Assembly (NCBI RefSeq): GCF_004785795.1
Contig: NZ_SRRO01000001.1
Coordinates: forward strand, 3,224,001 to 3,288,000
Source of the DNA: Nocardioides eburneiflavus
GTDB lineage: Bacteria; Actinomycetota; Actinomycetes; Propionibacteriales; Nocardioidaceae
DNA length: 64,000 nt
Direction of reading: 5' to 3'
The notes under the pieces were generated by a model. That model saw only the letters and a program-made list of their open reading frames with translations, was not told the DNA's origin and did no database searches. A program made the position numbers and the translations under genes. Positions 4,615 through 60,088 of this stretch are shown here, piece by piece (within the stretch, counting starts at the first letter, position 1; each line of letters starts with the position of its first letter).

Positions 4615-5351
4615 GCCGCCGCACCGCCATCGTCACTGGATCGACGTCCGGAATCGGTCACGATGTCGCTCGACGACTCCACGCCGATGGATTCAACGTC
4701 GTCATCACCGGCCGTGATCGGCAGCGCGGGGAGAAGGTCCGCGAAGAGCTCGGGCCGAACGCCGCATTCGTTGCCCAGGACCTAACCGCGCCCGGCGCGC
4801 CAGCAGAGCTCGCTGCCGCGGCGATCGACCAATACGGACGCCTCGACGTGGTGGTCAACAACGCCGCCCTGGACCACACTGGCGACCTGCTCGACGTGCC
4901 CGTGGCCGACGTTCGGCACCTCTTCGAGGTCAACGCGATCGCGGCGATCGCGGTCTTGCAGGAAGGCGCCAAGCGCATGGAGCGCGGCGGGGCCATCATC
5001 AACATCACGTCCCGACTGGCCTCGATCGGCGTTCCCACCATGGCGATCTACAGCGCCTCCAAGGGCGCCCTCAAGGCCTTGACCGCCGCCGCCGCAGTCG
5101 AGCTCGCGCCCCGCAACATTCGTGTCAACGCAGTCGCGCCCGGCATGACCCGGACGCCCCTCTTCGACACCTGGCTCAACGCGCAGGCCGACCCCGAGCA
5201 GACCCAACGTGGCGTCGTCGCGGACATCCCGCTCGGACGACTGGCTGACCCCCGCGACGTCGCAGCCGCCGTCGGGTTCCTCGCCTCCGAGGAGGCGTCG
5301 TACATCACCGGAGTCACCATTCCGGTCGACGGCGGCTATACGGCCCGCTAA
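4611..5351 (+). CDS. SDR-family oxidoreductase
   Basis: Short-chain dehydrogenase, 246 aa. The nucleotide-binding glycine motif TGSTSGIG is at the N-terminus. Catalytic Tyr147 and Lys151 lie in YSASKG, with a serine-containing INITSR strand before them. The C-terminus ITGVTIPVDGGYTAR is standard. It likely interconverts a hydroxyl and a keto group with NAD(P)H. The GTG start at 4611 is coupled to the aminotransferase stop. It belongs to the same transamination operon, so a hydroxylated amino compound or its keto product is the plausible substrate. Confidence 0.9.
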   Translation: MSRRTAIVTGSTSGIGHDVARRLHADGFNVVITGRDRQRGEKVREELGPNAAFVAQDLTAPGAPAELAAAAIDQYGRLDVVVNNAALDHTGDLLDVPVADVRHLFEVNAIAAIAVLQEGAKRMERGGAIINITSRLASIGVPTMAIYSASKGALKALTAAAAVELAPRNIRVNAVAPGMTRTPLFDTWLNAQADPEQTQRGVVADIPLGRLADPRDVAAAVGFLASEEASYITGVTIPVDGGYTAR

Positions 5352-5387
5352 CCACCCCCACCTATGCCCAGAAGAAGAGACGCCACC

Positions 5388-6662: not shown

Positions 6663-8161
6663 CCTCCGACGTTGCCCCACGCCCCGCCGCCGTACTGGCC
6701 GACGGCGCGAAGCCCGAGCGGGTCCGTGCCGCCGACGCCGTGCTGCGGAGCCTGTCCTTGCCGCCCGGCACGGACCGCTTCGACGTGCTCAACCCCGCAG
6801 ATGATCGGGTCATCGCGACCCTGCCCGAGACTGGCCCGACCGCCGCGCTCGAAGCAGTCGCGCTGGCCGATGAAGCGGGGCGGGACTGGGCAGCCACGAC
6901 ACCTCGCGTACGGGCCGACATCTTGCGACGGTGGTACGACCTGCTCGTCGAGAACGCCGAAGACATCGCGCTGCTGATCACACGGGAGATGGGCAAGCCG
7001 CTGGCAGAGGCGCGCGCCGAGGTCGGCTACGGCAGCGACTTCGTGCGCTGGTACGCGGAGGAGGCGGTACGTCCTGGCGGGAACGTCCGAGATGTCCCTG
7101 CCGGCGGCGGAACCCTGTTCACCCGCCGTGCGCCGGTGGGACTCTCGGTTCTGATCACGCCGTGGAACTTCCCGCTCGCTATGGCCACCCGCAAAATCGC
7201 GCCGGCGTTGGCCGCCGGGTGCCCGGTGCTCATCAAGCCCGCGAGCCTCACGCCATTGACCACTTACCACTGCGTCGCTCTCGCCCACCAGGCAGGTCTG
7301 CCCGAGAACCTGATCCAAGTCATCAGCACCACCGACGCGTCGACGTTCAGCGAGACGGTCCTTCGGGATCCGCGAGTGCGCAAGGTGTCCTTCACCGGCT
7401 CGACCGGCGTCGGCAAGGTGCTGCTACGTCTGGCAGCCGACAACGTGCTGCGCTCCTCGATGGAGCTCGGCGGTAACGCGCCGCTGATCGTGTTCGACGA
7501 CGCCGATCTCGAACGAGCCGTGGACGGCGCCTTCACCGCGAAGATGCGCAACGGCGGCCAGTCCTGCATCGCGGCCAACCGGATCTATGTCCAGGACGGC
7601 ATCGCGGACGCGTTCGTCGAGGGGCTCACCGAGAGGATGTCGGCGGTCATCGCCGGCGACGGACTCGCCGACAACGTCACCGTGGGCCCCCTCATCGACC
7701 GCAGGGCCGTGGCACACATGCAGCGCCTCGTCGACGACGCGGTGTCGCGCGGTACGACCGTGCGTGCCGGCGGCCGGATGCTCGAGGGCCCGGGAAACTT
7801 CTTCGCCCCCACCGTGATCGACCATGTGCCCACCGGCGCCGACATCGCCACCACCGAGATCTTCGGTCCCATTGCCGCCATCCAGCGCTTCAGCACCGAG
7901 GCCGACGTCCTCCGACGCGCAAACGCAACCGAGTTCGGACTCGCCGGCTACGTGTTCACCGAGAACCTCGACCGCGCCCTCAACGTGGCAGACACCCTCG
8001 AGACCGGACTGGTCGGCATCAACCAAGGCGTTCCCTCCAACGCAGCCGCGCCCTTCGGCGGGGTCAAGCACTCCGGGCTCGGCCGCGAGGGCAGCGCCGA
8101 AGGACTTGAGGAGTACCAGGAGGTCCGCATGTACAACCTCGCCCGCCGCGCCACCGCCTGA
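6659..8161 (+). CDS. NAD(P)-dependent aldehyde (semialdehyde) dehydrogenase
   Basis: 500 aa, complete ALDH. Catalytic Cys303 is in GGQSCIAANR and the general base Glu269 in MELGGNAPL; the coenzyme motif FTGSTGVGK and the TPWNFPLAM strand are clear. It looks most like succinate-semialdehyde dehydrogenases. It probably oxidises the aldehyde made by the class III aminotransferase, with which it is translationally coupled. It is strongly similar throughout to the ALDH at 29138-30622, so the two appear to be recent paralogues. Confidence 0.92.
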   Translation: MTSDVAPRPAAVLADGAKPERVRAADAVLRSLSLPPGTDRFDVLNPADDRVIATLPETGPTAALEAVALADEAGRDWAATTPRVRADILRRWYDLLVENAEDIALLITREMGKPLAEARAEVGYGSDFVRWYAEEAVRPGGNVRDVPAGGGTLFTRRAPVGLSVLITPWNFPLAMATRKIAPALAAGCPVLIKPASLTPLTTYHCVALAHQAGLPENLIQVISTTDASTFSETVLRDPRVRKVSFTGSTGVGKVLLRLAADNVLRSSMELGGNAPLIVFDDADLERAVDGAFTAKMRNGGQSCIAANRIYVQDGIADAFVEGLTERMSAVIAGDGLADNVTVGPLIDRRAVAHMQRLVDDAVSRGTTVRAGGRMLEGPGNFFAPTVIDHVPTGADIATTEIFGPIAAIQRFSTEADVLRRANATEFGLAGYVFTENLDRALNVADTLETGLVGINQGVPSNAAAPFGGVKHSGLGREGSAEGLEEYQEVRMYNLARRATA

Positions 8162-8227: not shown

Positions 8228-9343
8228 ATGCGTATCTCGACCGTCAAGGAGATCAAGACGAGGGAGGCTCGCGTCGGCATCGTTCCGGCCGGCGTCGCGG
8301 TCCTCGTACAAGACGGCCACGACGTCTTCGTGGAGCGCGACGCCGGTGCGGTCGCTGGCTTCTCGGACGCGGACTATGAGGATGCCGGCGCCAAACTGGT
8401 CGATCAGGCCGAGGCCTGGGCGAACGCCGAACTGCTGGTCAAGGTCAAGGAGCCCATCGCCGAGGAGTACCAGTTCCTGCGCGAAGACCTGACGCTGTTC
8501 ACCTACCTGCACCTCGCCGCAGACCGTCCGCTGACAGAGGCCCTGCTGAACGCAAGGACGCTGGGGATCGCGTACGAGACCGTGCAGGACAGCACCGGTC
8601 TGCCGCTGCTCACCCCGATGAGCGAGATTGCCGGCCGGCTCGCCGCACACGCGGCGGCTACCTACCTCACCGCGCCCGAAGGGGGCCCGGGTCGCCTGCT
8701 GGGCGGTTCGCCAGGCGTCGCCCCGTGTCGGGTGGTGGTCATCGGCGGCGGCGTCGTTGGCACTCAGGCCGCGCTTCTCGCGCTGGGTATGCAGGCGGAG
8801 GTCACCGTGCTCGACACGTCCGGGACCAGGATCCGAGAACTCGACAACCTGCTGAACGGGCGCGCCCGCGTCGTGATGAGCGACCCCGCCACGCTCGCCC
8901 ACGAGCTCAGCACGGCCGACGTCGTCATCGGCGCCGTTCTGGTCCCCGGCAAGGCGGCACCCCAGGTGGTCTCCCGCGGTGATCTCGCTCTACTGCGTCA
9001 GGGTGCCCTGCTCATCGATGTCGCCATCGACCAGGGCGGGGCATTCGAGACATCACGGCCCACCACCTACGCCGACCCGATCTACGAGGTCGACGGTGTC
9101 CGGCACTACTGCGTCGCGAACATGCCCGGCGGCGTACCGCAGAGCTCGACTCGCGCGCTCACCAACGCGACGTTCCCACACCTGCGGCGGCTCGCGAGCC
9201 TCGGGCCGTATCGGACCATCGTCGAGGACCCGGTACTGGCGTCGGGGGTGAACACCTGCGGCGGGGCGATCATCCACGCTGGAGTTGCAGAAGCCCTGCC
9301 TGAACTTCCGCACGCTTCCCTCGGGTCGATGTTGAGCATCTGA
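8228..9343 (+). CDS. ald: Alanine dehydrogenase
   Basis: 371 aa, the family length. It interconverts L-alanine plus NAD with pyruvate, ammonia and NADH. Seen: the pyruvate-binding lysine in KVKEP, the catalytic histidine in YLHLA, the NAD motif GGGVVGTQAA, the aspartate in DVAIDQGG and the signature ANMPGGVPQSSTRALTNAT. The ATG at 8228 follows GAAGGAG. Next to a pyruvate-type aminotransferase it would release ammonia from alanine and regenerate pyruvate. The gap to the ABC transporter is 129 bases. Confidence 0.96.
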   Translation: MRISTVKEIKTREARVGIVPAGVAVLVQDGHDVFVERDAGAVAGFSDADYEDAGAKLVDQAEAWANAELLVKVKEPIAEEYQFLREDLTLFTYLHLAADRPLTEALLNARTLGIAYETVQDSTGLPLLTPMSEIAGRLAAHAAATYLTAPEGGPGRLLGGSPGVAPCRVVVIGGGVVGTQAALLALGMQAEVTVLDTSGTRIRELDNLLNGRARVVMSDPATLAHELSTADVVIGAVLVPGKAAPQVVSRGDLALLRQGALLIDVAIDQGGAFETSRPTTYADPIYEVDGVRHYCVANMPGGVPQSSTRALTNATFPHLRRLASLGPYRTIVEDPVLASGVNTCGGAIIHAGVAEALPELPHASLGSMLSI

Positions 9344-9472
9344 TCCAGCCCTGTCTGGGGCGTTTTGACCCCTCCGGTGCCGTGGCAGCGGTCTAGCCGA
9401 TGTCAGGTGCACGACGTCCGAGCGGCGTGCGCTGTGTGCCGGGGACAACCTCTAATGAGAAGAGTAACGAGC

Positions 9473-10402
9473 ATGTTTACGAGTTCGCGAAACGTTTTGA
9501 CTGTGGCGGTTGTTGCCGCGGTGCTGATGCTGAGTGGGTGTGGGGGTGGTTCGAAGGCTCAGGGCCGCGAGGTCGGGGCCGGCGAGCACACCGATGACAT
9601 CTCCAGCGGGGTGGAGGTCGATGCCGGCGCTGCGGCGCTGGTGCCTGCGGATGTGAAGGAGGAGGGTGTCCTCCTGGTCGCCATGGATCTGACGAGCCCC
9701 CCGTCGGAGTTCTTGGCCTCGGACAACAAGACGCCGATCGGGTTCAACCCGGACATGGCGCGGCTGATCGCGAAGAAGCTCGGCCTGGAGCTGAAGATGG
9801 AGAACGTCAAGTTCGACACGATCATCCCGGGCCTTGAGGGCGGTCGGTATGACCTGACGGTGTCCTCGATGGCGGTGACCGAGGACCGGATGAAGGTGCT
9901 CGACATGATCGACTACGTGAGCAATGGCTCGTCGATCGCAGTCGGGGATGGCAACCCGGACGGCCTGACTCCCGACACGTTGTGTGGGAGAAGCATCGGC
10001 GTGCAGTCGGGTTCGGTGCAGGAGATCGAGCGGCTTCCGTTGCTGTCCGCTGAGACGTGCGACGCGAAGGGGAAGCCGGCGATCAAGGGGGTCTCGTTGC
10101 CCAGCGTGCAGGATGCGCTGACCCAGGTCGCCTCGGGGCGGATCGACGGGGTCTTCTACGACACCACGTCCCTGAGCTGGGCGGACAAGCAGCAGCCGGG
10201 AACCTTCGAGGTACTCACCCCCCAGGTGAACTCGAACGACAACGCGGTGGCGCTCGGCAAGGGCTCCGCGCTCACGCCGGCTGTCCAGGCGGCGCTTCAG
10301 TCGATCATCGACAGCCCGATCTATGCGGATGCCCTCGAGCGTTGGGGATTCGACGGGCTCGGGATCGACGAGGCGACGATGTCCGTCGCCGAGGAGGAGT
10401 GA
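9473..10402 (+). CDS. Amino-acid ABC transporter substrate-binding lipoprotein
   Basis: 309 aa, family 3 solute-binding protein. A type II signal peptide ends in the lipobox L20-S-G-C23, so it is membrane anchored. Two binding lobes follow; NPDMARLIAKKLGLELK and the GRYDLTVSSMAVTEDR segment are characteristic of polar amino-acid binders. The ATG at 9473 has GAGAAGAG eight bases upstream; ATG 9455 is an alternative. The last 105 codons lie in the long repeat and match the partial copy at the window start. It forms an operon with the permease and ATPase and follows ald. Confidence 0.93.
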   Translation: MFTSSRNVLTVAVVAAVLMLSGCGGGSKAQGREVGAGEHTDDISSGVEVDAGAAALVPADVKEEGVLLVAMDLTSPPSEFLASDNKTPIGFNPDMARLIAKKLGLELKMENVKFDTIIPGLEGGRYDLTVSSMAVTEDRMKVLDMIDYVSNGSSIAVGDGNPDGLTPDTLCGRSIGVQSGSVQEIERLPLLSAETCDAKGKPAIKGVSLPSVQDALTQVASGRIDGVFYDTTSLSWADKQQPGTFEVLTPQVNSNDNAVALGKGSALTPAVQAALQSIIDSPIYADALERWGFDGLGIDEATMSVAEEE

Positions 10403-10476
10403 TCTCCCGGGGGGACGGCACTCGGGTGGCCGCCTCCGTCCGGGACGCGGCCACCCTTAACGGAAAGGAACCGACC

Positions 10477-11394
10477 ATGTTGGAGACATTGGGGGAGGAC
10501 AAGCCCCGCCTTCGACTCAGGCGACCGGTGGATTATCTGTCGTGGGTGTTGACGGTCGGCCTCCTCGCGGGGCTGGCGTACACCCTGGTCACGAACGAGA
10601 ATTATCGATGGCCGGTCGTGCTGGAGTACTTCACGGCCGCGTCGATCATCAGCGGGATCGGGATCACGCTGATCCTGACCATCACCAGCATGGTTCTTGG
10701 GATTCTCCTCGGCTTGGTGCTGGCGATCATGCGCGCGTCCTCCCAACCCCCGGTGTCTGCGTTGGCGCGGCTGTACATCACGTTCTTTCGAGGCACCCCG
10801 GTGCTGGTCCAGTTGATCTTCTGGTTCAACCTCGCCGCGCTGTATCCCCGCCTCTCGATCGGCGTGCCCGGTACCGACATCTCGATGCCGGTGAACGTCA
10901 ACCAGCTGCTCAGCCCGATGACGGCGGCGATCATCGGCCTGACCCTGAACCAGGCGGCCTACATGGCCGAGATCATCCGCGGCGGCTTTGCCGCGGTGGG
11001 GCGCGGGCAGCTCGAGGCCGCCGAGTCCCTGGGCATGCACGGGTTCACGAAACTCCGGATCGTGGTGATCCCCCAGACGATGCCCTCGATCATCCCGCCT
11101 ACCGGGAACCAGTTCATCGGCATGCTCAAGGAGACCTCGCTGGTCAGCGTCCTCGGGGTCGCCGACCTGTTGCAGAGTGCGCAGTCGATCTACGCCCGGA
11201 CCTACGAGACCATCCCGCTGCTCATCGTGGCCAGCCTCTGGTACCTGATCATGACCATGACCCTGAGCGTCCCGCAGTCGATGATCGAGCGGCACTTCTC
11301 CCGGTCCACCCGTGTTCCCCGCTCGAGCCGCTCGGCCACTGGCACAGCCGCTCGCCCCGTTCTCGAGGTCGCACCGAAGGAGTCGTTGCTGTGA
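10477..11394 (+). CDS. Polar amino-acid ABC transporter permease (copy 2)
   Basis: 305 aa, residue-for-residue the same as the protein at 392-1309. It has the same hydrophobic helices, EAA loop and GGAAAGG ribosome site, and lies 74 bases after the complete lipoprotein gene. This copy belongs to an intact lipoprotein-permease-ATPase operon, so it is certainly expressible. The GTGA overlap with the ATPase is kept. Confidence 0.94.
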
Positions 11395-12158
11395 ACGCCG
11401 AAGGAACCATCGTCGGTCGCAAGCTCTGCAAGAGCTTCGGCAGCAACCACGTGCTGCGTGGGATCGACTTCGAGGTCGAGGCGGGGGAGATCTCCTGCAT
11501 CATCGGCCCGAGCGGCTCGGGCAAGTCGACGCTCTTGCGCTGCCTGAACGGGCTGGAGACCCTGGACCGCGGTGTGCTCAAGGTGAACGGGGAGCACTTC
11601 GGCTACGTCGAGCACCCGCATGCCTTCCACGCACTGAGCGCACGGCGCCTGGCCCGGCAGCGCACCCGGATCGGCATGGTCTTCCAGCAGTTCAACCTCT
11701 TCCCCAACCTGACCGCGCTGGACAACGTGATGGTCGGGCCGGTCCAGGTCAAGAAGGCCGCCCGAGCCCAGGCGCGTGAACACGCACGCGCGCTACTGGC
11801 GAAGGTGGGGCTCAGCCAATGCGAGAAGCAGTACCCGGCACAGCTATCAGGCGGTCAACAGCAACGCGTCGCGATCGCCCGGGCCCTGGCCATGGAACCA
11901 AGCATCCTGCTCTTCGACGAGCCGACCAGCGCCCTGGACCCGGAAAAGGTCGGCGAGGTCCTCGACGTCATGCGCGACCTGGCCGGCGCCGGAATGACCA
12001 TGGTCGTGGTCACCCACGAGATGGGCTTCGCCCGAGAGGTCGCGAACAACCTGCTCTTCATGGACGACGGCATCGTCGTAGAACGCGGAGACGCACGCGC
12101 CGTACTGTCCGACCCCCGCGAACGCCGCACCCAAGAGTTCCTCGAACGAGTCCTCTGA
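11391..12158 (+). CDS. Polar amino-acid ABC transporter ATP-binding protein (copy 2)
   Basis: 255 aa, identical to the protein at 1306-2073, with all ATPase motifs intact (Walker [22 protein letters not shown]). It closes the importer operon that starts at 9473. No hairpin follows the stop; the repeat ends here and unrelated sequence begins, so the original terminator may have been lost at the junction. Confidence 0.95.
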
Positions 12159-12331
12159 AGCGTCAGGGTCAGCATCATTCCAAGCGAAGGGACCCATGAC
12201 AGGCGATTGGAAAGGGGCTTTATGCGGAGTCTCCATGGCTGTCCGCCTCCTGCCACTTCGAGGCCTCGTAGCCGCCGGCAGAATCCCTCCCGCCCCGACC
12301 AACGGGCCGATGCAGGGTCGGATTGCTCCCA

Positions 12332-14670: not shown

Positions 14671-15656
14671 CACCGATCGCCATCACCATGGGTGACCCCT
14701 GCGGAATCGGCCCCGAGATCACGCTCAAGGCGTGTGCCGATCCCCAACGGACAGTGCCCGTCCTCGTCATCGGCGACGTGGAGGTCCTCGCCCGCGCCAA
14801 CGAGATCGTTGGCACGAACCTGACCATCCGCCCTGTCGCATCGGTCGACCAGGCGGAGCTCGCACCCGGCACTGTGGACGTCCTTGCCGCGAGCAGCCTT
14901 CCGGCTGACCTGTCCTGGGGCGCCCTCGACGCCCGTGCCGGAGCGGCGTCCTTCGAGTACGTGCGCCGCGGCATCGAGCTGGCGATGGCCAACGAGATTC
15001 GCGCTCTCGTCACCGCGCCGATCAACAAGGAAGCACTCCGCATGGCCGGAGTCCCCTATCCCGGGCACACCGAGATCCTGGCCGACCTGTCCGGCACAAC
15101 GCACTACGCGATGATGCTGGCCACCGACGAGCTCCGGACGGTCCTGGTCACCGTGCACGAGTCTCTCCGCACCGCAATCGACGCGATCACCACGGACCGC
15201 GTGCTCGACATCATCCGCCTCACCCACAGCACACTGCAGCGCAGCGGCTTGCCCATGCCCCGCATCGCCGTCGCCGGCCTCAACCCCCATGCAGGGGAGA
15301 ACGGCCTGTTCGGCAGGGAGGACCTGGACATCATCGCCCCGGCCATCGCGGCAGCGCAGAGCGAAGGCATCGAGGCCAGCGGCCCCTGGCCCGCTGACAC
15401 CATCTTCATGCGAGCCCGCACCGGCTCCTTCGACGTGGTGGTCGCGCAGTACCACGACCAGGGCCTCATCCCCATCAAGTACCTCGGGATCGAGCACGGC
15501 GTGAACATCACCATCGGCCTCCCCTTCGTCCGCACCAGCGTCGACCACGGCACCGCCTTCGACATCGCCGGTCTCGGCACGGCCGACCACACCAGCCTGC
15601 TCGCCGCCCTGACCCACGCCGACCGGTTGTCCTCAGGGGCACCGGCCCGCCGATGA
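14667..15656 (+). CDS. PdxA-family 4-phospho acid-sugar dehydrogenase
   Basis: 329 aa, PdxA/PdxA2 family. Motifs: TMGDPCGIGPEI at the start, PGHTEILADLS, AGLNPHAGENGLFG, YHDQGLIPIKYLG, and a C-terminal IGLPFVRTSVDHGTAFDIAG. The histidines of these motifs bind the divalent metal. Coupled to a DUF1537 kinase, this is more likely the catabolic PdxA2 type than the vitamin B6 enzyme; the former oxidatively decarboxylates 4-phosphothreonate to dihydroxyacetone phosphate. ATG 14667 has AGGAGAAG upstream. No other B6 genes are nearby. Confidence 0.9.
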   Translation: MTPIAITMGDPCGIGPEITLKACADPQRTVPVLVIGDVEVLARANEIVGTNLTIRPVASVDQAELAPGTVDVLAASSLPADLSWGALDARAGAASFEYVRRGIELAMANEIRALVTAPINKEALRMAGVPYPGHTEILADLSGTTHYAMMLATDELRTVLVTVHESLRTAIDAITTDRVLDIIRLTHSTLQRSGLPMPRIAVAGLNPHAGENGLFGREDLDIIAPAIAAAQSEGIEASGPWPADTIFMRARTGSFDVVVAQYHDQGLIPIKYLGIEHGVNITIGLPFVRTSVDHGTAFDIAGLGTADHTSLLAALTHADRLSSGAPARR

Positions 15657-15700
15657 CCGCCGACCCTGATCAGCCCAAGACAGAAAGCCGAAGAACCACC

Positions 15701-16360
15701 ATGGACTTCATCTTCATGCTCACCCGCGACGACCGCACCGTCACCGACTGCCTCGAGGTGCTCGACACCATCGAGGACCTCGGCATCACCCACATCGGGT
15801 TCAAGGACATCGGCGTCGACCCCAGCACCCTCGCCAAGCTCCACAGCCGCATCAAGGACATGGGCGCCACCACCTACCTCGAGGTCGTCAGCACCAATCG
15901 GGACCAGGCTCTTGCCTCGGTGCGGACGGCCACCGACCTCGGCGTCGACTGGCTGATGGGCGGCACCTGGATCGAGGAGACCCTCGACCTCCTGCGGGGG
16001 ACGTCGATCGGCTACCTGCCCTTCCCGGGAGAACCAGTGGGGCACCCCACTCGCCTCGCCGGCGACCCCGACCGCATCGCCGATGACTGCCGACGAGCGG
16101 AGGCTGCTGGCTGCGCCGGCGTCGACCTGCTGGCATACCGCGCCACCGACGCCGACCCTCTCGACCTGGTCCGCGCCGCCCGCGCCGCCACGACCGGCCG
16201 GCTGGTCGTCGCCGGCTCCATCACCGGTATCGACCAGATCCAGGCACTCGCAGCGGCCGGGGTCGACGCCTTCACCATCGGATCCGCCGCCTTCGACGGG
16301 TCGCTGCAGCCGCACGCCGGCACCCTCCGGGCCCAGCTGGCCCCGGTGGTCGGCCTGTAG
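15701..16360 (+). CDS. Phosphate-binding TIM-barrel protein of unknown function
   Basis: 219 aa, predicted small alpha/beta barrel. Residues such as GFKDIGVD, WLMGGTW, GVDLLAYR and VVAGSITGIDQI recur at strand ends; the terminal AAAGVDAFTIGSAAFDG resembles the phosphate-binding strands of HisA/HisF or aldolase barrels. It follows the kinase and dehydrogenase. An in-frame ATG at 15653 overlaps the PdxA stop, but family-like sequence starts at 15701. I do not recognise a defined reaction. An aldolase, isomerase or decarboxylase acting on the phosphorylated acid-sugar product is a guess. Confidence 0.8.
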   Translation: MDFIFMLTRDDRTVTDCLEVLDTIEDLGITHIGFKDIGVDPSTLAKLHSRIKDMGATTYLEVVSTNRDQALASVRTATDLGVDWLMGGTWIEETLDLLRGTSIGYLPFPGEPVGHPTRLAGDPDRIADDCRRAEAAGCAGVDLLAYRATDADPLDLVRAARAATTGRLVVAGSITGIDQIQALAAAGVDAFTIGSAAFDGSLQPHAGTLRAQLAPVVGL

Positions 16361-16431
16361 ACAGCCAGCTGTTCTCGGCCTCTCCGAAAGGCATTGAGGG
16401 AAGCCTTGTCTGTGCATTTCGGACCCCCGTG

Positions 16432-16490
16432 AGGAAAGGCTCCGCTAAGCCACAGAAGTCACGTTTGGTGGCCTTAGTGGAGCCTTTCCT
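16432..16490 (+). promoter_or_regulatory. Long hairpin in the VIT1 leader
   Basis: About 21 base pairs, with one bulge and G-T pairs, form between 16433-16453 and 16468-16489. The outer stem is AGGAAAGGCTC paired with GAGCCTTTCCT. A second VIT1 leader at 18073 keeps the same outer stem but changes the inner stem with compensating bases. Each arm also resembles an IdeR/DtxR iron box. It could be an operator pair, an RNA structure or the terminator of the preceding operon. Confidence 0.5.
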
Positions 16491-16528
16491 TCGTTGCGGG
16501 GGGTGCCCCGGGAAATTAGAATTCCGGC

Positions 16529-17254
16529 ATGACTCAAACCACACTTTCCCTTTCTGGTCCTGCCGAGGTAGGACATGTCCACGCCGACGTTTCCGGTGGA
16601 TGGCTGCGCGCATCTGTGTTCGGTGCGATGGACGGTCTGGTGACCAACATCGCGTTGGTTTCAGGCGTAGGTGCCGCCGGTGCCAACCCACGTTTCATCG
16701 TGCTCACCGGCATGGCGGGTCTCGTCGCAGGGGCGTTTTCAATGGCAATGGGTGAATACGCATCGGTAAAGACCCAAAATGAACAGGTCGATCGCGAATG
16801 GGCGCGCGAGGTCGATGAGATCCGCACTAATCCGGAAATGGAGGAGCTCGAGCTCGCGCACATGTTTGCCGACATGGGAATGGGCGAAAAGACCGCGCTC
16901 GCGGCGGCCCGTGAGATCCATGCGGACCCTGAGCGGGCGGCGCTCGTGCACGTCACCCACGAGCTCGGCCTGGACCCGGAGGACAAGCCGTCCCCCAAGG
17001 TCGCCGCGATCTCATCCTTCCTCACCTTCTCGCTGGGCGCCCTCGTGCCCCTGATCCCGTTCCTGCTCGGCTTCGCCTCGCTCGCAGCCGGCCTGATCGT
17101 GGGTGCGATCGGACTCTTCGTCGCCGGCGCGGTCGCGTCTCTCGCCACCAGCCAGCGCTGGTGGTGGAGCGCCACCCGTCAGCTCATGTTCGGTGTGCTG
17201 GCCGCCGGTGCAACGTACCTGGTGGGCCTCGCCATCGGCGTGAACGCGAGCTGA
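16529..17254 (+). CDS. VIT1/CCC1-family iron/manganese transporter
   Basis: 241 aa. Two N-terminal membrane helices contain FGAMDGLVTNIALVSGVGAA and MAGLVAGAFSMAMGEYAS, the signature of the family. A charged, acidic cytoplasmic segment of about 65 residues follows (MEELELAHMFADMGMGEKTA). Three more helices lie at residues about 150-241. Relatives move Fe(II) or Mn(II) out of the cytoplasm. The start at 16529 is preceded by an AT-richer leader with a large hairpin. A perfect terminator follows. A damaged, rearranged second copy lies at 17950-18734. Confidence 0.92.
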   Translation: MTQTTLSLSGPAEVGHVHADVSGGWLRASVFGAMDGLVTNIALVSGVGAAGANPRFIVLTGMAGLVAGAFSMAMGEYASVKTQNEQVDREWAREVDEIRTNPEMEELELAHMFADMGMGEKTALAAAREIHADPERAALVHVTHELGLDPEDKPSPKVAAISSFLTFSLGALVPLIPFLLGFASLAAGLIVGAIGLFVAGAVASLATSQRWWWSATRQLMFGVLAAGATYLVGLAIGVNAS

Positions 17255-17280
17255 CGACCACGGTCAATCACAGGACACGC

Positions 17281-17314
17281 AGAGGGGCCCCGCGGAGAGC
17301 CGCGGGGCCCCTCT
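17281..17314 (+). terminator. Terminator hairpin of VIT1 gene
   Basis: AGAGGGGCCCCGCGG and its exact complement form a 15-bp stem with a four-base loop. It occurs again at 17491-17523 and 18761-18794 behind the VIT1 fragments. It may also serve the facing oxidoreductase gene. Confidence 0.85.
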
Positions 17315-17370
17315 CGGCTTGTGGTCGGCTGGGATCAGAGCCGGATCGGCTGGTCGGGTGCACCCAGCCC

Positions 17371-17463
17371 TGGTGGAGCGCCACCCGTCAACTGCTGTTC
17401 GGTGTGCTGGCCGCCGGTGCGACGTACTTGGTCGGGCTCGCCATCGGGGCGAACGTGAGCTGA
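17371..17463 (+). pseudogene. VIT1 3' fragment
   Basis: This encodes the last 31 residues of VIT1 (WSATRQLLFGVLAAGATYLV onwards) with GANVS instead of GVNAS, then the same stop and downstream terminator. No start or membrane partner is present. It is a partial duplication of 17162-17254. Confidence 0.9.
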
Positions 17464-17490
17464 CGGCCCTCGGTCGATCACAGGACACGC

Positions 17491-17523
17491 AGAGGGGCCC
17501 CGCGGAGAGCCGCGGGCCCCTCT
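17491..17523 (+). terminator. Second copy of VIT1 terminator
   Basis: Same hairpin as 17281-17314 but with one G missing in the right arm, so the stem has a bulge. It follows the VIT1 3' fragment. Confidence 0.75.
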
Positions 17524-17547
17524 CGCCATGTGGTCGGCTGGGATCGG

Positions 17548-17876
17548 CTAGCCCGGTGGCAGGAAGGGCCGGACCAGCCGTGCGCGCCTGGCCGCCTTCC
17601 CGGTGCGTTACTCGCAGGCATCGGAGGCGTCGAGGGTCTTGGTGATGAGCCTGGAGGTGATGAATCGGATGGGCTCGGGTTCCCAGTTGCGGGTGGTGTC
17701 TCACCCAGGGAAGCGACGTCAGGTCAGTGCTGTCGTTCAGGATCAGGTCGCGCATGGTGCGGCCGGAGATGTTGGCTGCGGTGACGCCGTGACCTCCGAA
17801 CGCACTCACGAATCCGAGCCCCGTGTTGCGGTCGAAAGTCGTCCTCATGCACCCAGTCGCGGGGGACGCCAGGGGT
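17548..17876 (-). pseudogene. FAD oxidoreductase 3' fragment
   Basis: The minus strand reads MRTTFDRNTGLGFVSAFGG and then GRTMRDLIL, matching residues near the end of the oxidoreductase at 18810-20291. A frameshift follows after LPWV, and then remnants run to a stop at 17548. About the last 110 codons are represented. The N-terminal three quarters are absent. It faces the VIT1 fragment exactly as the intact genes face each other, so the whole VIT1/oxidoreductase junction was duplicated. Confidence 0.88.
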
Positions 17877-17949
17877 TGGTTTGTCGCCAGCCGGGTGTTT
17901 CGTCGGCCTCTCCGAAAAGCAGTGAGGGAAGCCTTGTCCCGCATTCTTT

Positions 17950-18066
17950 CACCCATTGCCATGGAAAACGCCCCCGCGACGAGACCCGCCATGCCGGTGA
18001 GCACGATGAAACGTGGGTTGGCAGCGGGTACGCATCGGTAAATACCCAAAATGAACAGGTCGAGAA
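17950..18066. pseudogene. Displaced VIT1 blocks, one inverted
   Basis: 17950-18023 is the reverse complement of VIT1 codons about 52-76. 18029-18066 is a forward copy of codons about 77-91 with small changes. Both are nearly identical in bases to the intact gene. They are precisely parts that are missing from the broken VIT1 copy just downstream. No open frame could use them here. Confidence 0.85.
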
Positions 18067-18072
18067 TGGGTG

Positions 18073-18140
18073 ACTCCTTTTAGGAAAGGCTCTGATAGGT
18101 CCCCGATGCCAGCCTTGGCGGGGCTAGTGGAGCCTTTCCT
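18073..18140 (+). promoter_or_regulatory. Second copy of the VIT1 leader hairpin
   Basis: The outer stem AGGAAAGGCTC/GAGCCTTTCCT is the same as at 16432. The inner stem is now a CCCCG/CGGGG helix, so bases changed while pairing stayed. The bases after it match the first leader only for ten positions (TTCGTTGCG). Confidence 0.5.
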
Positions 18141-18146
18141 TCGTTG

Positions 18147-18734
18147 CGCTGGACGGTCTGGTGACCAACATCGCGCTGGTTTCAGGCGTCGGTGCCGAAA
18201 TTCCGGCATGACTCAAACCACACTTTCCCTTTCTGGTAATGCCGAGGTAGGAAATGTCCACGCCGACGTTTCCGGGGGCTGGGCGCGCGAGGTCGAGGAG
18301 ATCCGCATTAACCCGGAAATGGAGGAGCTCGAGCTCGCGCACATGTTGCCGACATGGGAATGGGCGAAAAGACCGCGCTCGCGGCGGCCCGTGAGATCCA
18401 TGCGGACCCTGAGCGGGCGGCGCTCGTGCACGTCACCCACGAGCTCGGCCTGGACCCGGAGGACAAGCCGTCCCCCAAGGTCGCCGCGATCTCATCCTTC
18501 CTCACCTTCTCGCTGGGCGCCCTCGTGCCCCTGATCCCGTTCCTGCTCGGCTTCGCCTCGCTCGCAGCCGGCCTGATCGTGGGTGCGATCGGACTCTTCG
18601 TCGCCGGCGCGGTCGCGTCTCTCGCCACCAGCCAGCGCTGGTGGTGGAGCGCCACGCGTCAGCTGCTGTTCGGTGTGCTGGCCGCCGGTGCAACGTACCT
18701 GGGGGGCCTCGCCATCGGCGTGAACGCGAGCTGA
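18147..18734 (+). pseudogene. Rearranged VIT1 copy
   Basis: 18147-18196 copies VIT1 codons 33-49 but lies before the start codon. The gene restarts at 18208 with codons 1-25, then jumps directly to codon 92 at a shared TGG-CGCGC sequence. A one-base deletion (CATGTTTGCC became CATGTTGCC) shifts the frame near 18344. From 18354 the frame is open again to the VIT1 stop and terminator. The first two membrane helices are lost, so a functional transporter is unlikely. A short product from ATG 18354 cannot be excluded. Confidence 0.92.
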
Positions 18735-18760
18735 CGACCACGGTCAACCACAGGACACGC

Positions 18761-18794
18761 AGAGGGGCCCCGCGGAGAGCCGCGGGGCCCCTCT
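18761..18794 (+). terminator. Third copy of VIT1 terminator
   Basis: Perfect copy of the hairpin at 17281-17314. It lies between the VIT1 pseudogene and the end of the facing oxidoreductase gene and can serve both strands. Confidence 0.85.
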
Positions 18795-18809
18795 CGGCTT
18801 GTGGGACTG

Positions 18810-20291
18810 CTAGCCCGGTGGCAGGAACGGCTTCACCAGCCGTGCCCGCTTGGCCGGCTTGCCGGTGCGCTCCTCGTAGGCATCGGAGGCCTCGAGAGTC
18901 TTGGTGATGAGCCTGGCGGCGACGAACCGAAGGGGCTCGGGCTCCCAGCTCCGGCTGCGGTAGCCAACCCAGGGAAGCGACGTCAGGTCCGTGCTCTGGC
19001 CCAGGATCAGGTCGCGCATCGTGCGGCCGGAGATGTTGGCGGCGACGACACCGTGACCGCCGAACGCACCCACGAATCCCAGCCCTGTCTTGCCGTCGAA
19101 CGTCGTCCTCATGCACCAGTCGCGTGGCACGGCCAGGGACCCACCCCAGTGATGGGTGATGCGAGCCTGCGACGCGGCAGGAAACGCTTCGCGCAGGGTC
19201 TCGCACAGACGCTGGAAGACTCCGGCGTCCTGCTCGTTTTGGGGTGACAGGGGGTCGGTCAGTCGGTACGGCGCTCCGCGGCCGCCCAGGGCGATCCGGC
19301 CGTCGATCGTGCGCTGGGAGTAGTAGTAGAGATGCCTCATGTCCGCGACCCCGAGACCGTCTCGCCACCCGAGCTCATCCCAGGTCTCCTGTGAGAGGGG
19401 CTCGGTGGCGACCATCAGGGAGTAGAGGGGCAGGAAGCTGCGTCGGTGACCCCGCTCCCGGATCGTGTAGGACTCCGTGGCTCGCACCACGACATCGGCC
19501 GTGACCCGTCCGTTGCCGCACTGCACCACCTTCGGGCTCACGCGTTCTGCCCGGGTCTGCTCAAAGATCGTGACACCGAGCCGCTCGCAGGCGTCGGCGA
19601 GCCCGCGAGCAAGCCGCGCGGGGTCGACGCGAGCGACATGCGGGGTGAAGCATCCGGCGACAACACCGGCTGCCCCGGGGACGAGCTCGGCACACTCCTC
19701 GGCGGTCAGCAGCCTGATGTCCTCGGGACCGAGTCCGAAACCGTGCTTCGCCTCGACCCTGGCACGGACGCGCTGCGCCTGTGGATCGGTGGTCGCCAAG
19801 GTCAGCGCACCCCCCTTCTTGTAGCCGCAGTCGATCCGCTCCTCAGAGATCACCCGGCCGATCTCGTCGACCCCGTGGTGGGTCTCGCGCTCGGCTCGCA
19901 GGACGGCGTCCCACCCGCTACGTCGTGCGTAGCGCGCCCCGCTGCCCGCAATGCCCGCTGAGACGAAGCCGCCGTTGCGACCGGCCGCGCCGAATCCCGC
20001 GATTTCGGCCTCGATCACGGTGACCCGCAGGGAGGGGTCGGCGGCCTTGAGGTAGTAGGCCGTCCAAAGTCCGGCGAAGCCAGCACCGACGATAGCGACA
20101 TCACAGGTGTGGTCGCCCGACAACTGCTCTCTCGGCGTGAGGTTCGGGACGACCCCCTCGAGCCACAGACTCCGCGACCACGGGGTTTCGGCTGCTGGTG
20201 GAAGCGCGTCGGCGAGTCCTACCGCGCTGGTCTTGGAGGGCTCGACGCGCCCCTGTGGCAGGGTGCCGAGCCATTGGGACTGGAACTTCAT
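18810..20291 (-). CDS. FAD-dependent amine oxidoreductase (DAO family)
   Basis: 493 aa. The N-terminal Rossmann motif is AIVGAGFAGLWTAYYLKAAD, followed by GFGAAGRNGGFVSAG, the layout of gamma-glutamylputrescine oxidase (PuuB) and related amine oxidases. The C-terminal GFVGAFGGHGVVAAN closes the FAD site. It would oxidise a secondary or primary amine to imine and aldehyde with H2O2 release. The ATG at 20291 has GAGGAG upstream on the minus strand. It follows the peptide-type ABC transporter genes. A close paralogue is at 55325-56767, and fragments are at 17548 and 37240. Confidence 0.9.
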   Translation of the reverse strand: MKFQSQWLGTLPQGRVEPSKTSAVGLADALPPAAETPWSRSLWLEGVVPNLTPREQLSGDHTCDVAIVGAGFAGLWTAYYLKAADPSLRVTVIEAEIAGFGAAGRNGGFVSAGIAGSGARYARRSGWDAVLRAERETHHGVDEIGRVISEERIDCGYKKGGALTLATTDPQAQRVRARVEAKHGFGLGPEDIRLLTAEECAELVPGAAGVVAGCFTPHVARVDPARLARGLADACERLGVTIFEQTRAERVSPKVVQCGNGRVTADVVVRATESYTIRERGHRRSFLPLYSLMVATEPLSQETWDELGWRDGLGVADMRHLYYYSQRTIDGRIALGGRGAPYRLTDPLSPQNEQDAGVFQRLCETLREAFPAASQARITHHWGGSLAVPRDWCMRTTFDGKTGLGFVGAFGGHGVVAANISGRTMRDLILGQSTDLTSLPWVGYRSRSWEPEPLRFVAARLITKTLEASDAYEERTGKPAKRARLVKPFLPPG

Positions 20292-20363
20292 TTCGTACTC
20301 CTCAAATTTGCGTAGTGTGCGGCGGCTAAGCAGCCAGTGCGGAGGCATTGGGACAGCCGGAGG

Positions 20364-21380
20364 TCATTGGTCCGAGAAATGGCAGGTGGCGTAGTGGTCG
20401 TCGCCGGGCCAGGCGACCGGGGGCACGGTGGTGCGGCAGATGTCCTGGGCCAGTGGGCAGCGGGGGTGGAACCGGCAGCCGGATGGTGGGTCGATCGGGC
20501 TGGGTGGTTCGCCCTTGAGGCGGGTGATGATCGTGTCGGTGCCTTGCTGTTCCTCGGCCAGGGACGCGGCCAGCAAGACGCGCGTGTAGGGGTGGCGGGG
20601 GTTGGTGAACAGCTCCTCGCGGGGTGCTTCCTCGACGATCTGGCCCAGGTACATGACCGCGACCCGGTCGCACAGGTAGCGCACCACCCGGAGGTCGTGC
20701 GAGATCAGCACCAGGGTCAGGTCGAGCTGGTCCTTCAGCTCGACCAGCAGGTTGAGGATCTGGGCCCGGATCGAGGCGTCGAGCGCGGAGGTGGGCTCGT
20801 CACAGATGAGGAACTTGGGCTTCAGCAGCAGCGCCCGGGCGATGACGAGACGCTGCAGCTGGCCACCGGAGCACTCCCGGGCGTACCGGTCCAGGATGTC
20901 GTCTTCCAGGCCGACCCTCGCCAGCATCTCCGCGATCCGCGCGGTCCGTTCCGCCTGGTCCTTCATCCCGTGGTGCCGCAGCGGAGAGTGCAGGCTGGCG
21001 CCCAGGCGCATCTTCGGGTCGAACGCCCCGTAGGGGTCCTGGAACACGAACTGCATCGAACGTCGCAGTGCCTTGAGCTCCCGGCCCTTGATGCCGGAGA
21101 TCTTCTGGCCGTCGAAGGTGATGTGTCCCGAGTCCGCGGTGACGGCTTGCAGGATGGTGCGGGCCAGGGTGGACTTGCCGCAGCCGGACTCCCCGACGAG
21201 TCCGAGGACCTCGCCCTTGCCGACCTCCAGGGACACCCCGTCCACGGAGTGCACCGTCTTGCCCCGGCCGGCGGGGAAGTGCTTGACCACCCCGTCCAGG
21301 GTCAACAGCGGCTCGTAGGGTCGGGGCCGCTGTCTCGGCTGCGAGACCTCGACGGCCTGGATCGACGCTGGGGTGATCAT
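20364..21380 (-). CDS. Peptide/nickel-type ABC transporter ATP-binding protein (OppF-like)
   Basis: 338 aa. Walker A GESGCGKST, signature CSGGQLQR, Walker [15 protein letters not shown], and the C-terminal oligopeptide extension with the CRFHPRCPLAQDIC cysteine pattern. The last of five transport genes on this strand; it powers uptake together with the ATPase at 21377-22417. The start at 21380 overlaps that gene's stop (ATGA); a longer open frame upstream lies inside the neighbour. The oxidoreductase gene follows after 72 bases, so the transported compound may be its substrate. Confidence 0.93.
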   Translation of the reverse strand: MITPASIQAVEVSQPRQRPRPYEPLLTLDGVVKHFPAGRGKTVHSVDGVSLEVGKGEVLGLVGESGCGKSTLARTILQAVTADSGHITFDGQKISGIKGRELKALRRSMQFVFQDPYGAFDPKMRLGASLHSPLRHHGMKDQAERTARIAEMLARVGLEDDILDRYARECSGGQLQRLVIARALLLKPKFLICDEPTSALDASIRAQILNLLVELKDQLDLTLVLISHDLRVVRYLCDRVAVMYLGQIVEEAPREELFTNPRHPYTRVLLAASLAEEQQGTDTIITRLKGEPPSPIDPPSGCRFHPRCPLAQDICRTTVPPVAWPGDDHYATCHFSDQ

Positions 21381-26022: not shown

Positions 26023-26589
26023 TTCCTGGATTCCTTTGCACCAAGCCGGATTTCCGGCGACGAGGCGGGGGGTTGTCACGCGGTGGTCGGGGCCGGACTA
26101 CGGCCACCAGGCCTTGCCGATCGACCGGCCTTCCGCGTTTGCGTCACGCTAGGGACGGGTCTTCAAGGGCGTCCAGACCTCCCGTGGCATCTCCAGACGA
26201 TCTGGTTTCAGTGAAGCAGATCACGACCCGATAGCACAGGAATGTCCGGGCCCAAACGGCCAATCGTCTGACTGCGTCAGACTTGGCTAGGAAGGCCGAG
26301 CCCACAAGCCTGGTGCCTGATCGGCTCCGAGAGGGCCGGAGCTGCCCGGTGTGGCGCAGCCACTGTGGGACTACGGCGCCGTGTCAGACAGATACCGAGG
26401 TACTGGTCGTCTGATTGAGCAAAACGCTGGCGTTCATCACCTTCGTCATCAGATCGTCGCAATCCTGGCATTGATCATGGACGCACCCCGAAAAGTTCTC
26501 CTAGCCTCTCCGTGTCCGAGACGCCGGCCGCTGTTCGGGGGTCGTGCCCGCCTCACCATGTCCAAACCCCTTCGAGGAGACCTCACCAA
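26023..26589. promoter_or_regulatory. Divergent intergenic region with palindromes
   Basis: No gene is visible in these 567 bases between divergent genes. A perfect palindrome GTCTGAC-TGC-GTCAGAC is at 26266-26282. Further half-sites GTCAGAC (26383-26389) and GTCTGAT (26408-26414) lie 18 bases apart. The three-site layout suggests a repressor or Lrp-like activator that controls the transporter and the RidA operon. A similar GGCCAA-A-CGTCTGA sequence occurs near 31774, close to the Lrp gene. Confidence 0.55.
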
Positions 26590-27066
26590 ATGGCTGAGAT
26601 TCACACCCGCAGCAGCTCGGCGACGGAGCGGCTTCAGGCGCTCGGTATGGAGCTCCCCGCCGTGGGTGAGAACACGAAGTACGTGAACCATCGACGTGTC
26701 GACTCGAGCATCCACGTCGCGGGTCAGCTGCCCGACAAGGACGGCGAGCTCCTGGCCCAAGGGACGCTGGGTCACGACGTCGACATCGAGACCGCTCGTG
26801 AGCTGGCCCGCCACGCCGTCGTCAACTGCCTCGCCGTCGCCGCGGACGCGGTCGGCGGCCTGGACAAGGTGCGGATCGTGCAGATGCTGGTCTTCGTAGC
26901 CAGCACACCGGAGTTCGGTCAGCAGTCGACGGTGGCAGACGCGGCCAGCGACCTGCTCATCGACGTGCTCGGGGAGAACGGGCGGCACGCCCGCACGGCC
27001 ATCGGTGTCGCGAGCCTGCCGCGCACCAGCCCGGTCGAGATCCAGATGGTCTGCAGCGCGGCCTAG
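26590..27066 (+). CDS. RidA-family protein (copy A)
   Basis: 158 aa, slightly longer than canonical RidA (about 130). It has the YjgF fold segments VNHRRVDSSIHVAGQLP and VGGLDKVRIVQMLVFVASTP. RidA proteins hydrolyse reactive enamine/imine intermediates such as 2-aminoacrylate. The canonical catalytic arginine near the C-terminus is not in its usual R-V-E context (here SPVEIQM), so it may belong to an Rid subfamily. The gene precedes a D-serine dehydratase-like enzyme whose dehydration chemistry would generate exactly such enamines. The start at 26590 has GAGGAG upstream. Confidence 0.85.
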   Translation: MAEIHTRSSSATERLQALGMELPAVGENTKYVNHRRVDSSIHVAGQLPDKDGELLAQGTLGHDVDIETARELARHAVVNCLAVAADAVGGLDKVRIVQMLVFVASTPEFGQQSTVADAASDLLIDVLGENGRHARTAIGVASLPRTSPVEIQMVCSAA

Positions 27067-27140
27067 GACCGGCCCACCAGCGCTCGTCCCGACTCGCTAG
27101 TCGCGAGGGAAACCCTTCCAACTCTTCTGAGGAGTGCACT

Positions 27141-28247
27141 GTGCACCGGCTTCAACGAGTACTGGACCGCCTGGTCGACCGGGTGGACACACCCTTTCCG
27201 ATCGTGCTGGCGGACGTCATCCAGCGCAACATCGACCGGATGCAGGCCTTCGCGGCCGAGCGGGGTCTGGACGTGCGTCCGCACGTCAAGACCCACAAGT
27301 GCATCGAGATCGGCCGGCGCCAGCTCGAGGCGGGGGCGGTGGGGATCACCGCCGGCAACGTGGGTGAGGCCGAGGTGTTCGCCGGCGCGGGCTTCGACGA
27401 CATCTTCCTGGCCTACCCGGTGTGGCCCTCGGGCACCAAGGGGGAGCGGATCCGCGAGCTGGCCCGGACCACGAGCCTGCGGGTCGGCGTGGACAACGCC
27501 GCGGCGATCGAGGCGCTGGCCGACGCGATGGGCGACGAGCCGGAGCGGCTCCAGGTCGTCATCGAGGTCGACTGCGGTGCCCGCCGCTCCGGAGCCCCGC
27601 CGGAGGCCGCCGGCGATCTCGCCCAGGCCGCCCGCAAGCGTGGACTGGTGCCGGCCGGGGTCTTCACCTATCCCGGGCACGGCAGTTCCGGTCCTGGTTC
27701 GCGGGAGCCGGCCGCGCAGGACCAGGAGGCCGCGCTCACCACCGCCGTACGCAGCCTGAAGAGCGTGGGGATCACCCCGGAGGTGGTCTCTGCCGGGTCG
27801 ACCCCGACGGTGGCGTACGCGACGAGCAGCGTGATCACCGAGATCCGGCCCGGCGAGTACGTGTTCTGCGACCTGAACAACACCCGTCTCGGTGCGTGCG
27901 AGGAGGACCAGATCGCCCTGTTCGTGGCCGCGACGGTGGTCAGCGACTGGGTGCCGGACCAGGTCATCCTCGACGTCGGGACCAAGGCGATGGGCCGCGA
28001 GGGCACCCCGGAGAAGGGCTACGGCGGCGTCGCGGGGAGGAAGGCGGTGCTGGCGAAGCTCAACGAGTACCACGGGTTCCTCGCGGTGCCCGGCGGCGAG
28101 GAGCGGCCGAGCGTGGGCACCGTGGTCCCGGTGGTGCCCAACCACGTGTGCCCGGTGGTGGCCAGCTTCGAGGAGCTGCTGGTCACCGACTCCAAGGGCA
28201 CGACGCTGGAGCGGTGGGAGGTCGCCGCCCGGGGACGCCTCAGCTGA
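27141..28247 (+). CDS. D-serine dehydratase/D-threonine aldolase-like PLP enzyme (copy A)
   Basis: 368 aa, fold type III (alanine-racemase barrel). The N-terminal barrel has the PLP lysine K50 in RPHVKTHKC. The C-terminal beta domain has the metal motif H335-V-C337 in PNHVC. Known DSD1-type D-serine dehydratases coordinate zinc with a His-x-Cys pair, whereas D-threonine aldolases use His-x-Asp; this points to dehydratase chemistry but does not prove it. GTG start with TGAGGAG upstream. Placed between RidA and an SDR. A beta-hydroxy D-amino acid is the likely substrate. Confidence 0.87.
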   Translation: MHRLQRVLDRLVDRVDTPFPIVLADVIQRNIDRMQAFAAERGLDVRPHVKTHKCIEIGRRQLEAGAVGITAGNVGEAEVFAGAGFDDIFLAYPVWPSGTKGERIRELARTTSLRVGVDNAAAIEALADAMGDEPERLQVVIEVDCGARRSGAPPEAAGDLAQAARKRGLVPAGVFTYPGHGSSGPGSREPAAQDQEAALTTAVRSLKSVGITPEVVSAGSTPTVAYATSSVITEIRPGEYVFCDLNNTRLGACEEDQIALFVAATVVSDWVPDQVILDVGTKAMGREGTPEKGYGGVAGRKAVLAKLNEYHGFLAVPGGEERPSVGTVVPVVPNHVCPVVASFEELLVTDSKGTTLERWEVAARGRLS

Positions 28248-28306
28248 CCCTGCGACGACTGCCTGCATCCATTCCCCTTGAACCACCAACCCCAGGAGAA
28301 GACTGA

Positions 28307-29041
28307 ATGAGACTCGAGAACCTCACCGCGCTGATCACCGGCGCCAGCAGCGGGATCGGCGAGGCGGTGAGCTCGCACTTCCGCCGCGAGGGCGCGCGGC
28401 TGCTGCTGACCGGTCGCCGCGAGCAGCTCGACACCGTCCAGCCCGAGGACGTGTACGTCCCCGGAGACCTCAACGACGAGGCGTTCGTCGCCTCCTTGGC
28501 CAAGCAGGCCAAGGAGTCCTTCGGCACCGTCGACGTGGTCGTGCTCAACCACGGACTGCAGGCCGGCGGCCCGCTGACCGAGATGTCCTACGAGGACGCG
28601 CGGGACGTGCTGCACAGCAACCTGCTCAGCTCGTTCCTGGTGATGAAGCACTTCGCCCCGCTGATGCCGGAGTCGGGAGGCTCCTTCGTGCTCGTCGGGT
28701 CCCGGCTCGGCATCGTCGGCAAGCCGGAGGAGGTGCTGTACTCCGCGGCCAAGGGCGGCCTGATCATGCTCGCCAAGGGCGCCGCGATCGAGTGGGCCCC
28801 GCGCAACATCCGGGTCAACGTGGCCGCACCCGGCCTGACCATGACCCCGGTCGTCGAGTCGAACATCCAGCGCCGGCCCGACCCGGAGGCCTACCGCCGA
28901 CAGCGCGAGTCCCAGATCCCGCTACAGCGCCTCGCCACCCCCGAAGAGATCGCCGACGCCGTCCTCTTCCTCGCCTCCTCGGAGTCCTCCTACATCACCG
29001 GAGCCGTCCTCCCCATCGACGGCGGATACACCGCCTTCTAG
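28307..29041 (+). CDS. SDR-family oxidoreductase (copy A)
   Basis: 244 aa. N-terminal [20 protein letters not shown] binds the nucleotide. The catalytic serine region is [11 protein letters not shown]; Tyr and Lys are in YSAAKGG; the C-terminus is [16 protein letters not shown]. It is shorter between the first strands than many SDRs. It ends the RidA-dehydratase-SDR cassette, which recurs at 58390-60823 with high similarity. It would oxidise a hydroxyl or reduce the keto acid made by the preceding enzymes. Confidence 0.9.
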
Positions 29042-58386: not shown

Positions 58387-58389
58387 CAG

Positions 58390-58866: not shown

Positions 58867-58926
58867 GACCCACCGAATCCGTCGAACCACCCTTCGACCG
58901 AACCCTTCGACACCGAGGAGCGCACC

Positions 58927-60033: not shown

Positions 60034-60088
60034 GCGCCCGTACGACCACTGATCACGCATCCACCACGACCCGACGGAGAAACCCACG

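Follow-up and report, generated by a model that had tools for sequence, protein, structure and literature searches.

A second VIT1 copy in Nocardioides eburneiflavus with its 5′ half rearranged into displaced and inverted blocks

Tandem gene duplication, with pseudogenisation and gene conversion in its wake, is a familiar course of gene evolution, and for complex local rearrangements in bacteria template switching is the better known source. Eukaryotes are known to undergo chromothripsis-type shattering and end joining, and the scrambled genes of ciliates consist of permuted and inverted coding pieces. Here we describe a locus of Nocardioides eburneiflavus, a soil-type bacterium, in which an intact gene for a VIT1-type metal (iron) transporter (VIT1, copy 1) is followed by a second copy (copy 2) whose pieces stand in another order. 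Like duplicates on the first of these courses, copy 2 is adjacent to its partner, carries a frameshift and shares one homogenised tract with it, whereas ordinary duplicate decay proceeds without the reordering and inversion seen among the pieces of its 5′ half. Short pieces, an inversion and shared sequence at some joins recall MMBIR/FoSTeS and short-patch double illegitimate recombination; copy 2 differs from what such events would be expected to leave in that it uses each piece once, with little loss. The many clustered breaks, the shuffled order and orientation and the single-use pieces resemble chromothripsis-type shattering with end joining, although copy 2 spans hundreds of bases rather than megabases, resides in a bacterium and would owe its form to a mechanism that is proposed here. 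Copy 2 also has in common with ciliate scrambled genes its permuted, inverted coding pieces, some with short shared ends, but as an apparent pseudogene beside an intact gene it is not expected to undergo descrambling. We give about an even chance to a history in which VIT1 was duplicated, the redundant copy went through one clustered episode of breakage and rejoining, and its long 3′ block was later subject to gene conversion.

The genome comprises 4,998,011 bases in two contigs, and the window analysed here is a stretch of 64,000 nucleotides, to which the positions below refer. VIT1 copy 1 (16529–17254, plus strand) encodes 241 amino acids and is intact. It gives a full-length match to the PF01988 profile (E = 1.7e-63; residues 26–233 against profile positions 1–213 of 214) at 214.7 bits, above the curated cut-off of 28.1, and its protein shares 93% amino acid identity with VIT1 of Nocardioides gansuensis. 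Facing VIT1 on the minus strand is a full-length gene for an FAD-dependent oxidoreductase (18810–20348; PF01266), collinear with that of N. gansuensis. In this species, the nearest relative found, the corresponding place contains a single intact VIT1 and a single oxidoreductase gene between the same neighbours; window positions 15865–17353 align with 4353–5825 of its locus (L029), and 18275–20400 with 5266–7382. The two VIT1 copies of the window are thus adjacent, and the extra unit is missing from this outgroup, as in a tandem duplicate. In Nocardioides immobilis (L030), VIT1 is intact and collinear (window 16480–17315), and the oxidoreductase gene is not next to it in the DNA compared. Some VIT1 match occurs in at least 197 of the 215 genomes of the genus set, the own genome included. 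Among the matches listed for these 215 genomes, identities of at least 83% were reached by the own genome and two others, G092 and G101, whose VIT1 loci fall within those of N. gansuensis and N. immobilis, respectively. A scrambled second VIT1 copy was seen in neither of these two nearest relatives found, both of which are intact and collinear, and the arrangement of copy 2 was found in no other genome searched.

To describe this arrangement, we divided copy 1 into consecutive blocks A–G, delimited where copy 2 jumps. Block A (16362–16421) belongs to the leader of the intact gene and is repeated at 17888–17947. Block B (16422–16498) is a leader inverted repeat with 18-nucleotide arms that are 94% complementary, which we take to resemble an iron-regulator box; its 3′ arm and the next bases (GAGCCTTTCCTTCGTTGCGG) do not differ between the window, N. 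gansuensis and N. immobilis, the remainder being variable. Repeat comparison places the start codon and codons 1–27 in block C (16520–16610), codons 31–49 in D (16619–16676), codons 50–76 in E (16677–16756), and codons 91–241, the stop codon and a terminator-like inverted repeat in G (16799–17324), all on the plus strand. Block F (16757–16802) holds codons 77–91, and its last four bases are the start of G. Copy 2 (17869–18804) contains every block once, in the order A, inverted E, F, B, D, C, G. Its first segment, A′ with the joint of the tandem duplication (17869–17947), aligns with copy 1 from 17869, corresponding to 16343, and at 17869–17874 an oxidoreductase tail is joined to the end of the upstream gene. 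There follow E′ on the minus strand (17948–18027) and, on the plus strand and as aligned with copy 1, F′ with a four-base gap near its end (18029–18070), the displaced leader inverted repeat B′ (18072–18148), D′ (18140–18197), which overlaps B′ by nine bases at their join, C′ (18199–18289) and G′ (18280–18804), which bears a one-base deletion at about 18346.

The correspondences between the copies lie well above chance, with BLAST E values from 1e-8 to below 1e-30; that of block B was found at laxer settings only (E = 9e-8). The leader stretch 16375–16410 recurs at 17903–17938 (94%; 47 of 58 bases over block A), and B agrees at 58 of 77 bases (75%). Codons 1–27 recur at 18199–18289 (92%; 84/91), codons 31–49 upstream of the copy 2 start codon at 18140–18197 (93%; 54/58), and codons 50–76 inverted at 18027–17948 (96%; 77/80). 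Codons 77–88, the first 35 bases of F (16757–16791), match 18029–18063 at 97%, the whole length of F agreeing at 36 of 42 bases. Codons 91–241 with the terminator match 18280–18804 at 98%; along G the identical bases number 64/67 in the first part, 299/299 in the middle, 93/97 at the end and 61/62 in the terminator region. A sequence-only reading of this DNA had already placed codons 33–49 ahead of the copy 2 start codon, codons 52–76 upstream and inverted, codons 77–91 upstream and forward, and a duplicated 38-bp leader flank at 16376–16412 and 17901–17938, and had noted the jump from codon 25 to codon 92 at a common TGG and then a common CGCGC; each of these is recovered here, with slightly shifted limits for the pieces. 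Its main contention, that the second copy was broken at several points, with pieces displaced and one inverted, unlike simple decay, gains support, and the two relatives described above do not hold the same blocks as old segments, the outcome it had named as contrary to its claim. The displacement of B, the one-base deletion, the 299-base identity and the near-lossless tiling of copy 1 go beyond what it reported.

Copy 2 is, judging from its sequence, a pseudogene, because its blocks are out of order, which leaves codons 26–90 out of line, and because, beyond about codon 112, the one-base deletion puts the sequence out of frame and stops ensue. An open full-length frame for PF01988 is absent. 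The earlier statement that the second copy keeps codons 92–241 holds for the DNA and fails for the reading frame. On the minus strand, a 261-codon open reading frame at 17264–18049 joins the inverted VIT1 codons 50–76 to part of the oxidoreductase tail and is probably a chance product.

The 299 identical bases (16867–17165 and 18347–18645) lie within the unshuffled, collinear block. The absence of any difference over this length has a probability of 5.7e-7 given the rate seen in the other coding blocks (23/490), and of 7.1e-5 given that of the G end with the terminator alone (5/159). The tract is best read as later gene conversion of the sole long collinear block; alternatively, it could reflect collapse of two copies during polishing or assembly. 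The displaced blocks differ from copy 1 at 3–25% of their sites (coding blocks 3–8%, B 25%), and the VIT1 duplication is, on this evidence, not fresh. In most blocks the two copies have more in common with one another than with N. gansuensis: they share 92% in C, 96% in E and 75% in B, and copies 1 and 2 share with N. gansuensis 88% and 82%, 90% and 88%, and 58% and 64%, respectively. In the middle of G, both copies agree and N. gansuensis differs at 33 of 299 sites. Because the copies are mutually closer and the N. gansuensis locus has no second copy, the duplication would most simply postdate the split from that species. An older date could also apply, since the sites are unpolarised with one outgroup and gene conversion could lower the apparent age of an older duplication.

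Between the two copies lies a diverged fragment (17361–17874, plus strand) composed of a VIT1 3′ end, a terminator-like repeat and an oxidoreductase 3′ tail, 84–86% identical to the resident copy. Both parts had been noticed as duplications: the VIT1 3′ fragment, then given as 17371–17463, extends over 17371–17468 (89%), and the oxidoreductase tail corresponds to 18629–19138 (84%). Across its VIT1 3′ end and terminator-like repeat, the fragment pairs 17371–17545 with 17162–17336 at 90% and a spacing of 209 bases, and this pair lies between copy 1 and the oxidoreductase tail. The oxidoreductase part of the fragment is 85.7% identical to the resident gene; the values for N. gansuensis and for a paralog at 55 kb are 84.3% and 82.9%. 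With 7, 2 and 7 informative sites, respectively, no clear grouping emerges, and a fresh copy of the local oxidoreductase tail was rejected as the fragment's source on these values. Its divergence is about that of the N. gansuensis split, and the fragment appears to be older or foreign. The earlier suggestion that the breaks are recent because base identity is high finds no support: the blocks are 75–98% identical apart from the one tract at 100%, and the tail fragment is about as far from the resident gene as from N. gansuensis.

Our proposed course starts from an ancestral locus in which a single leader–VIT1 unit stood opposite a single oxidoreductase gene. About 1.5 kb, running from where the upstream gene ends into the oxidoreductase gene, would have been duplicated in tandem, giving VIT1 a second, redundant copy. 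Six breaks within about 390 bases would then have cut up the 5′ half of this copy, and its pieces, 46–91 bases long, would have been put together again in the order A, inverted E, F, B, D, C, G. Each would have been used once, with little loss, and some of the joins would have formed on short shared sequence. A candidate route is end joining by Ku and LigD-type proteins. The genome encodes Ku (PF02735, 183.7 bits, above cut-off; 2061931–2062479 of contig C1) and, in the adjoining gene, a ligase of the non-homologous end-joining type (TIGR02779, 248.2 bits, above cut-off; 2062597–2063511), so that end joining is available to it, which speaks for capacity and not for use. Afterwards, gene conversion would have passed sequence between copy 1 and the long collinear block G, while the short shuffled blocks would have drifted.

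How completely the pieces tile copy 1 bears on the manner of the shuffling. If A is limited to its well conserved part, up to 16410, the five middle blocks cover 16411–16801 without overlap and leave 40 of its 391 bases uncovered, 11 of them within 16411–16421, where A and A′ still loosely align. An equally good tiling arose in 7 of 200,000 random placements of the same block lengths (3.5e-5), under a simple null of independent uniform placement in 391 bases and with the blocks themselves defined from the same alignment. The match coordinates have D and E, and E and F, abutting exactly, although the terminal bases of a match may be chance, and the four bases common to F and G (16799–16802) are the sole doubled stretch noted between A and G. 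Each piece is thus used once with little loss, apart from this four-base sharing, as a shuffle by end joining would have it. Microhomology is plain at two of the six joins, B|D (TTCG.TGCG common to both parents) and C|G (TGG and CGCG common to both parents); in an ungapped view the others show little, and by eye that view revealed no recombination repeat common to the block borders. Nor was a border-shared repeat, as a site-specific shufflon would have, present among the 20 direct families and 25 inverted pairs inspected, of 24 and 39 with a minimum length of 12 bases; a site shorter than this may be present. A signed-permutation search gave a minimum of five inversions, or of three mixed inversions and transpositions, for the block order. 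The three-step path obtained implies eight breaks on six borders, counted by hand, and hence two borders broken twice within a few bases.

The tiling and these step counts favour, short of proof, a single clustered episode, most likely, over several unrelated ones. The strictest form of this reading, a conservative micro-shattering in which about 390 bases suffered six breaks and were religated at little loss with order and orientation changed, like chromothripsis in miniature beside an intact copy, is tentative and may well not be correct. For any such break-and-rejoin episode, six breaks in about 390 bases, with tiny fragments escaping nucleases and all being recovered, would be physically demanding. 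Instead, the dying duplicate might have accumulated local inversions and transpositions one after another, each at a short shared sequence. Time for them sufficed, since the displaced blocks differ by 3–25%; a three-step path exists, and small indels in F′ and G′ point to ongoing decay. We nevertheless consider such a series rather unlikely, as it has to break two borders twice within a few bases on the three-step path, and more on the five-inversion path. Nor did a comparable locus appear when 60 hand-spaced stretches of 20 kb, 59 from the chromosome and 1 from the second contig (1.2 Mb in all, about a quarter of this genome), were put through the local-repeat scan used for the VIT1 locus; they yielded 59 local repeat pairs, and one stretch (L101) fell under the cluster rule and was set aside because its four overlapping same-orientation matches join one 73-base and one 63-base patch. 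Replicative template switching, in which pieces of VIT1 would be copied in jumps by an MMBIR/FoSTeS-like process or short-patch illegitimate recombination, would account for the shared sequence at two joins and the one inverted piece, and an intact template lies 1.5 kb away. It is expected, if not always, to repeat and skip stretches, for which reason we place break-and-rejoin ahead of it; the overlap-free middle blocks, the 40 uncovered bases, the rarity of such tiling among the random placements and the single four-base doubling are unfavourable to it, and we consider it unlikely but, like the serial course, a real rival.

An assembly or polishing artefact, for which the 299-base tract could be two collapsed copies, seems very improbable. 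The assembly consists of two contigs, and copy 2 carries the states of N. gansuensis, not those of copy 1, at 8 sites in B and 2 in D; together with the 3–25% differences, this means that the displaced blocks are not simply misplaced copy 1 sequence. We ascribe no function to the shuffled copy. Scarcely credible is a functional rearrangement, drawn from geometry alone, in which E′ would act as an 80-nucleotide antisense to VIT1 mRNA or B′ as a decoy for a leader regulator. E′ is 96% complementary to codons 50–76, and AGGAAAGGCTC is retained in both arms of B′ as the sequence between them diverged. Set against this, no promoter-like site occurs in 16300–18850, where 0.2 would be expected by chance with a consensus that may suit this genome poorly, and the arrangement is absent from all other genomes searched.

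Copy 2 preserves the traces of local DNA shuffling in a bacterium with unusual clarity. If it arose in one event, bacterial repair can reassemble several fragments of less than 100 bases with little loss, and an explanation beyond standard end joining or template switching would be needed. Owing to the intact copy and the outgroup, the breakpoints can be read to within a few bases, which makes the locus a compact test case for the origin of complex local rearrangements.

Of the nine places that 17876–18345 matched in the own genome, one was the query, seven were at copy 1 and one was at a VIT1 paralog, and a dispersed-repeat origin of the blocks was rejected. A mobile origin was likewise rejected: a plasmid collection gave three records, none with 80% query coverage, and viral contigs gave 0 matches to an exact pattern spanning the join of inverted E and F. 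Within 15600–19600, no known RNA family was found at the leader; RF02353 matched weakly at two terminator-like repeats (20.4 and 20.3 bits; gathering score 39).

Further repeats occur in the window. A 2,852-base duplication (1–2075 and 9309–12160, 99.9% identity) has a first copy that begins about 775 bases to the left of the window and a second that ends 4 kb before the VIT1 locus; it is either a recent duplication or an assembly duplicate, and an open reading frame in it resembles, by eye, an ABC-transporter ATPase. Paralogous stretches in the same orientation pair 18812–20212 with 55327–56727 (82%) and 26575–29041 with 58376–60823 (87%), and the VIT1 paralog (73% amino acid identity) lies at about 64152, just beyond the window end; together they may go back to an old duplication of a gene cluster. 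Some 115 bases recur in inverted orientation at 82% identity (32211–32322 and 40480–40367).
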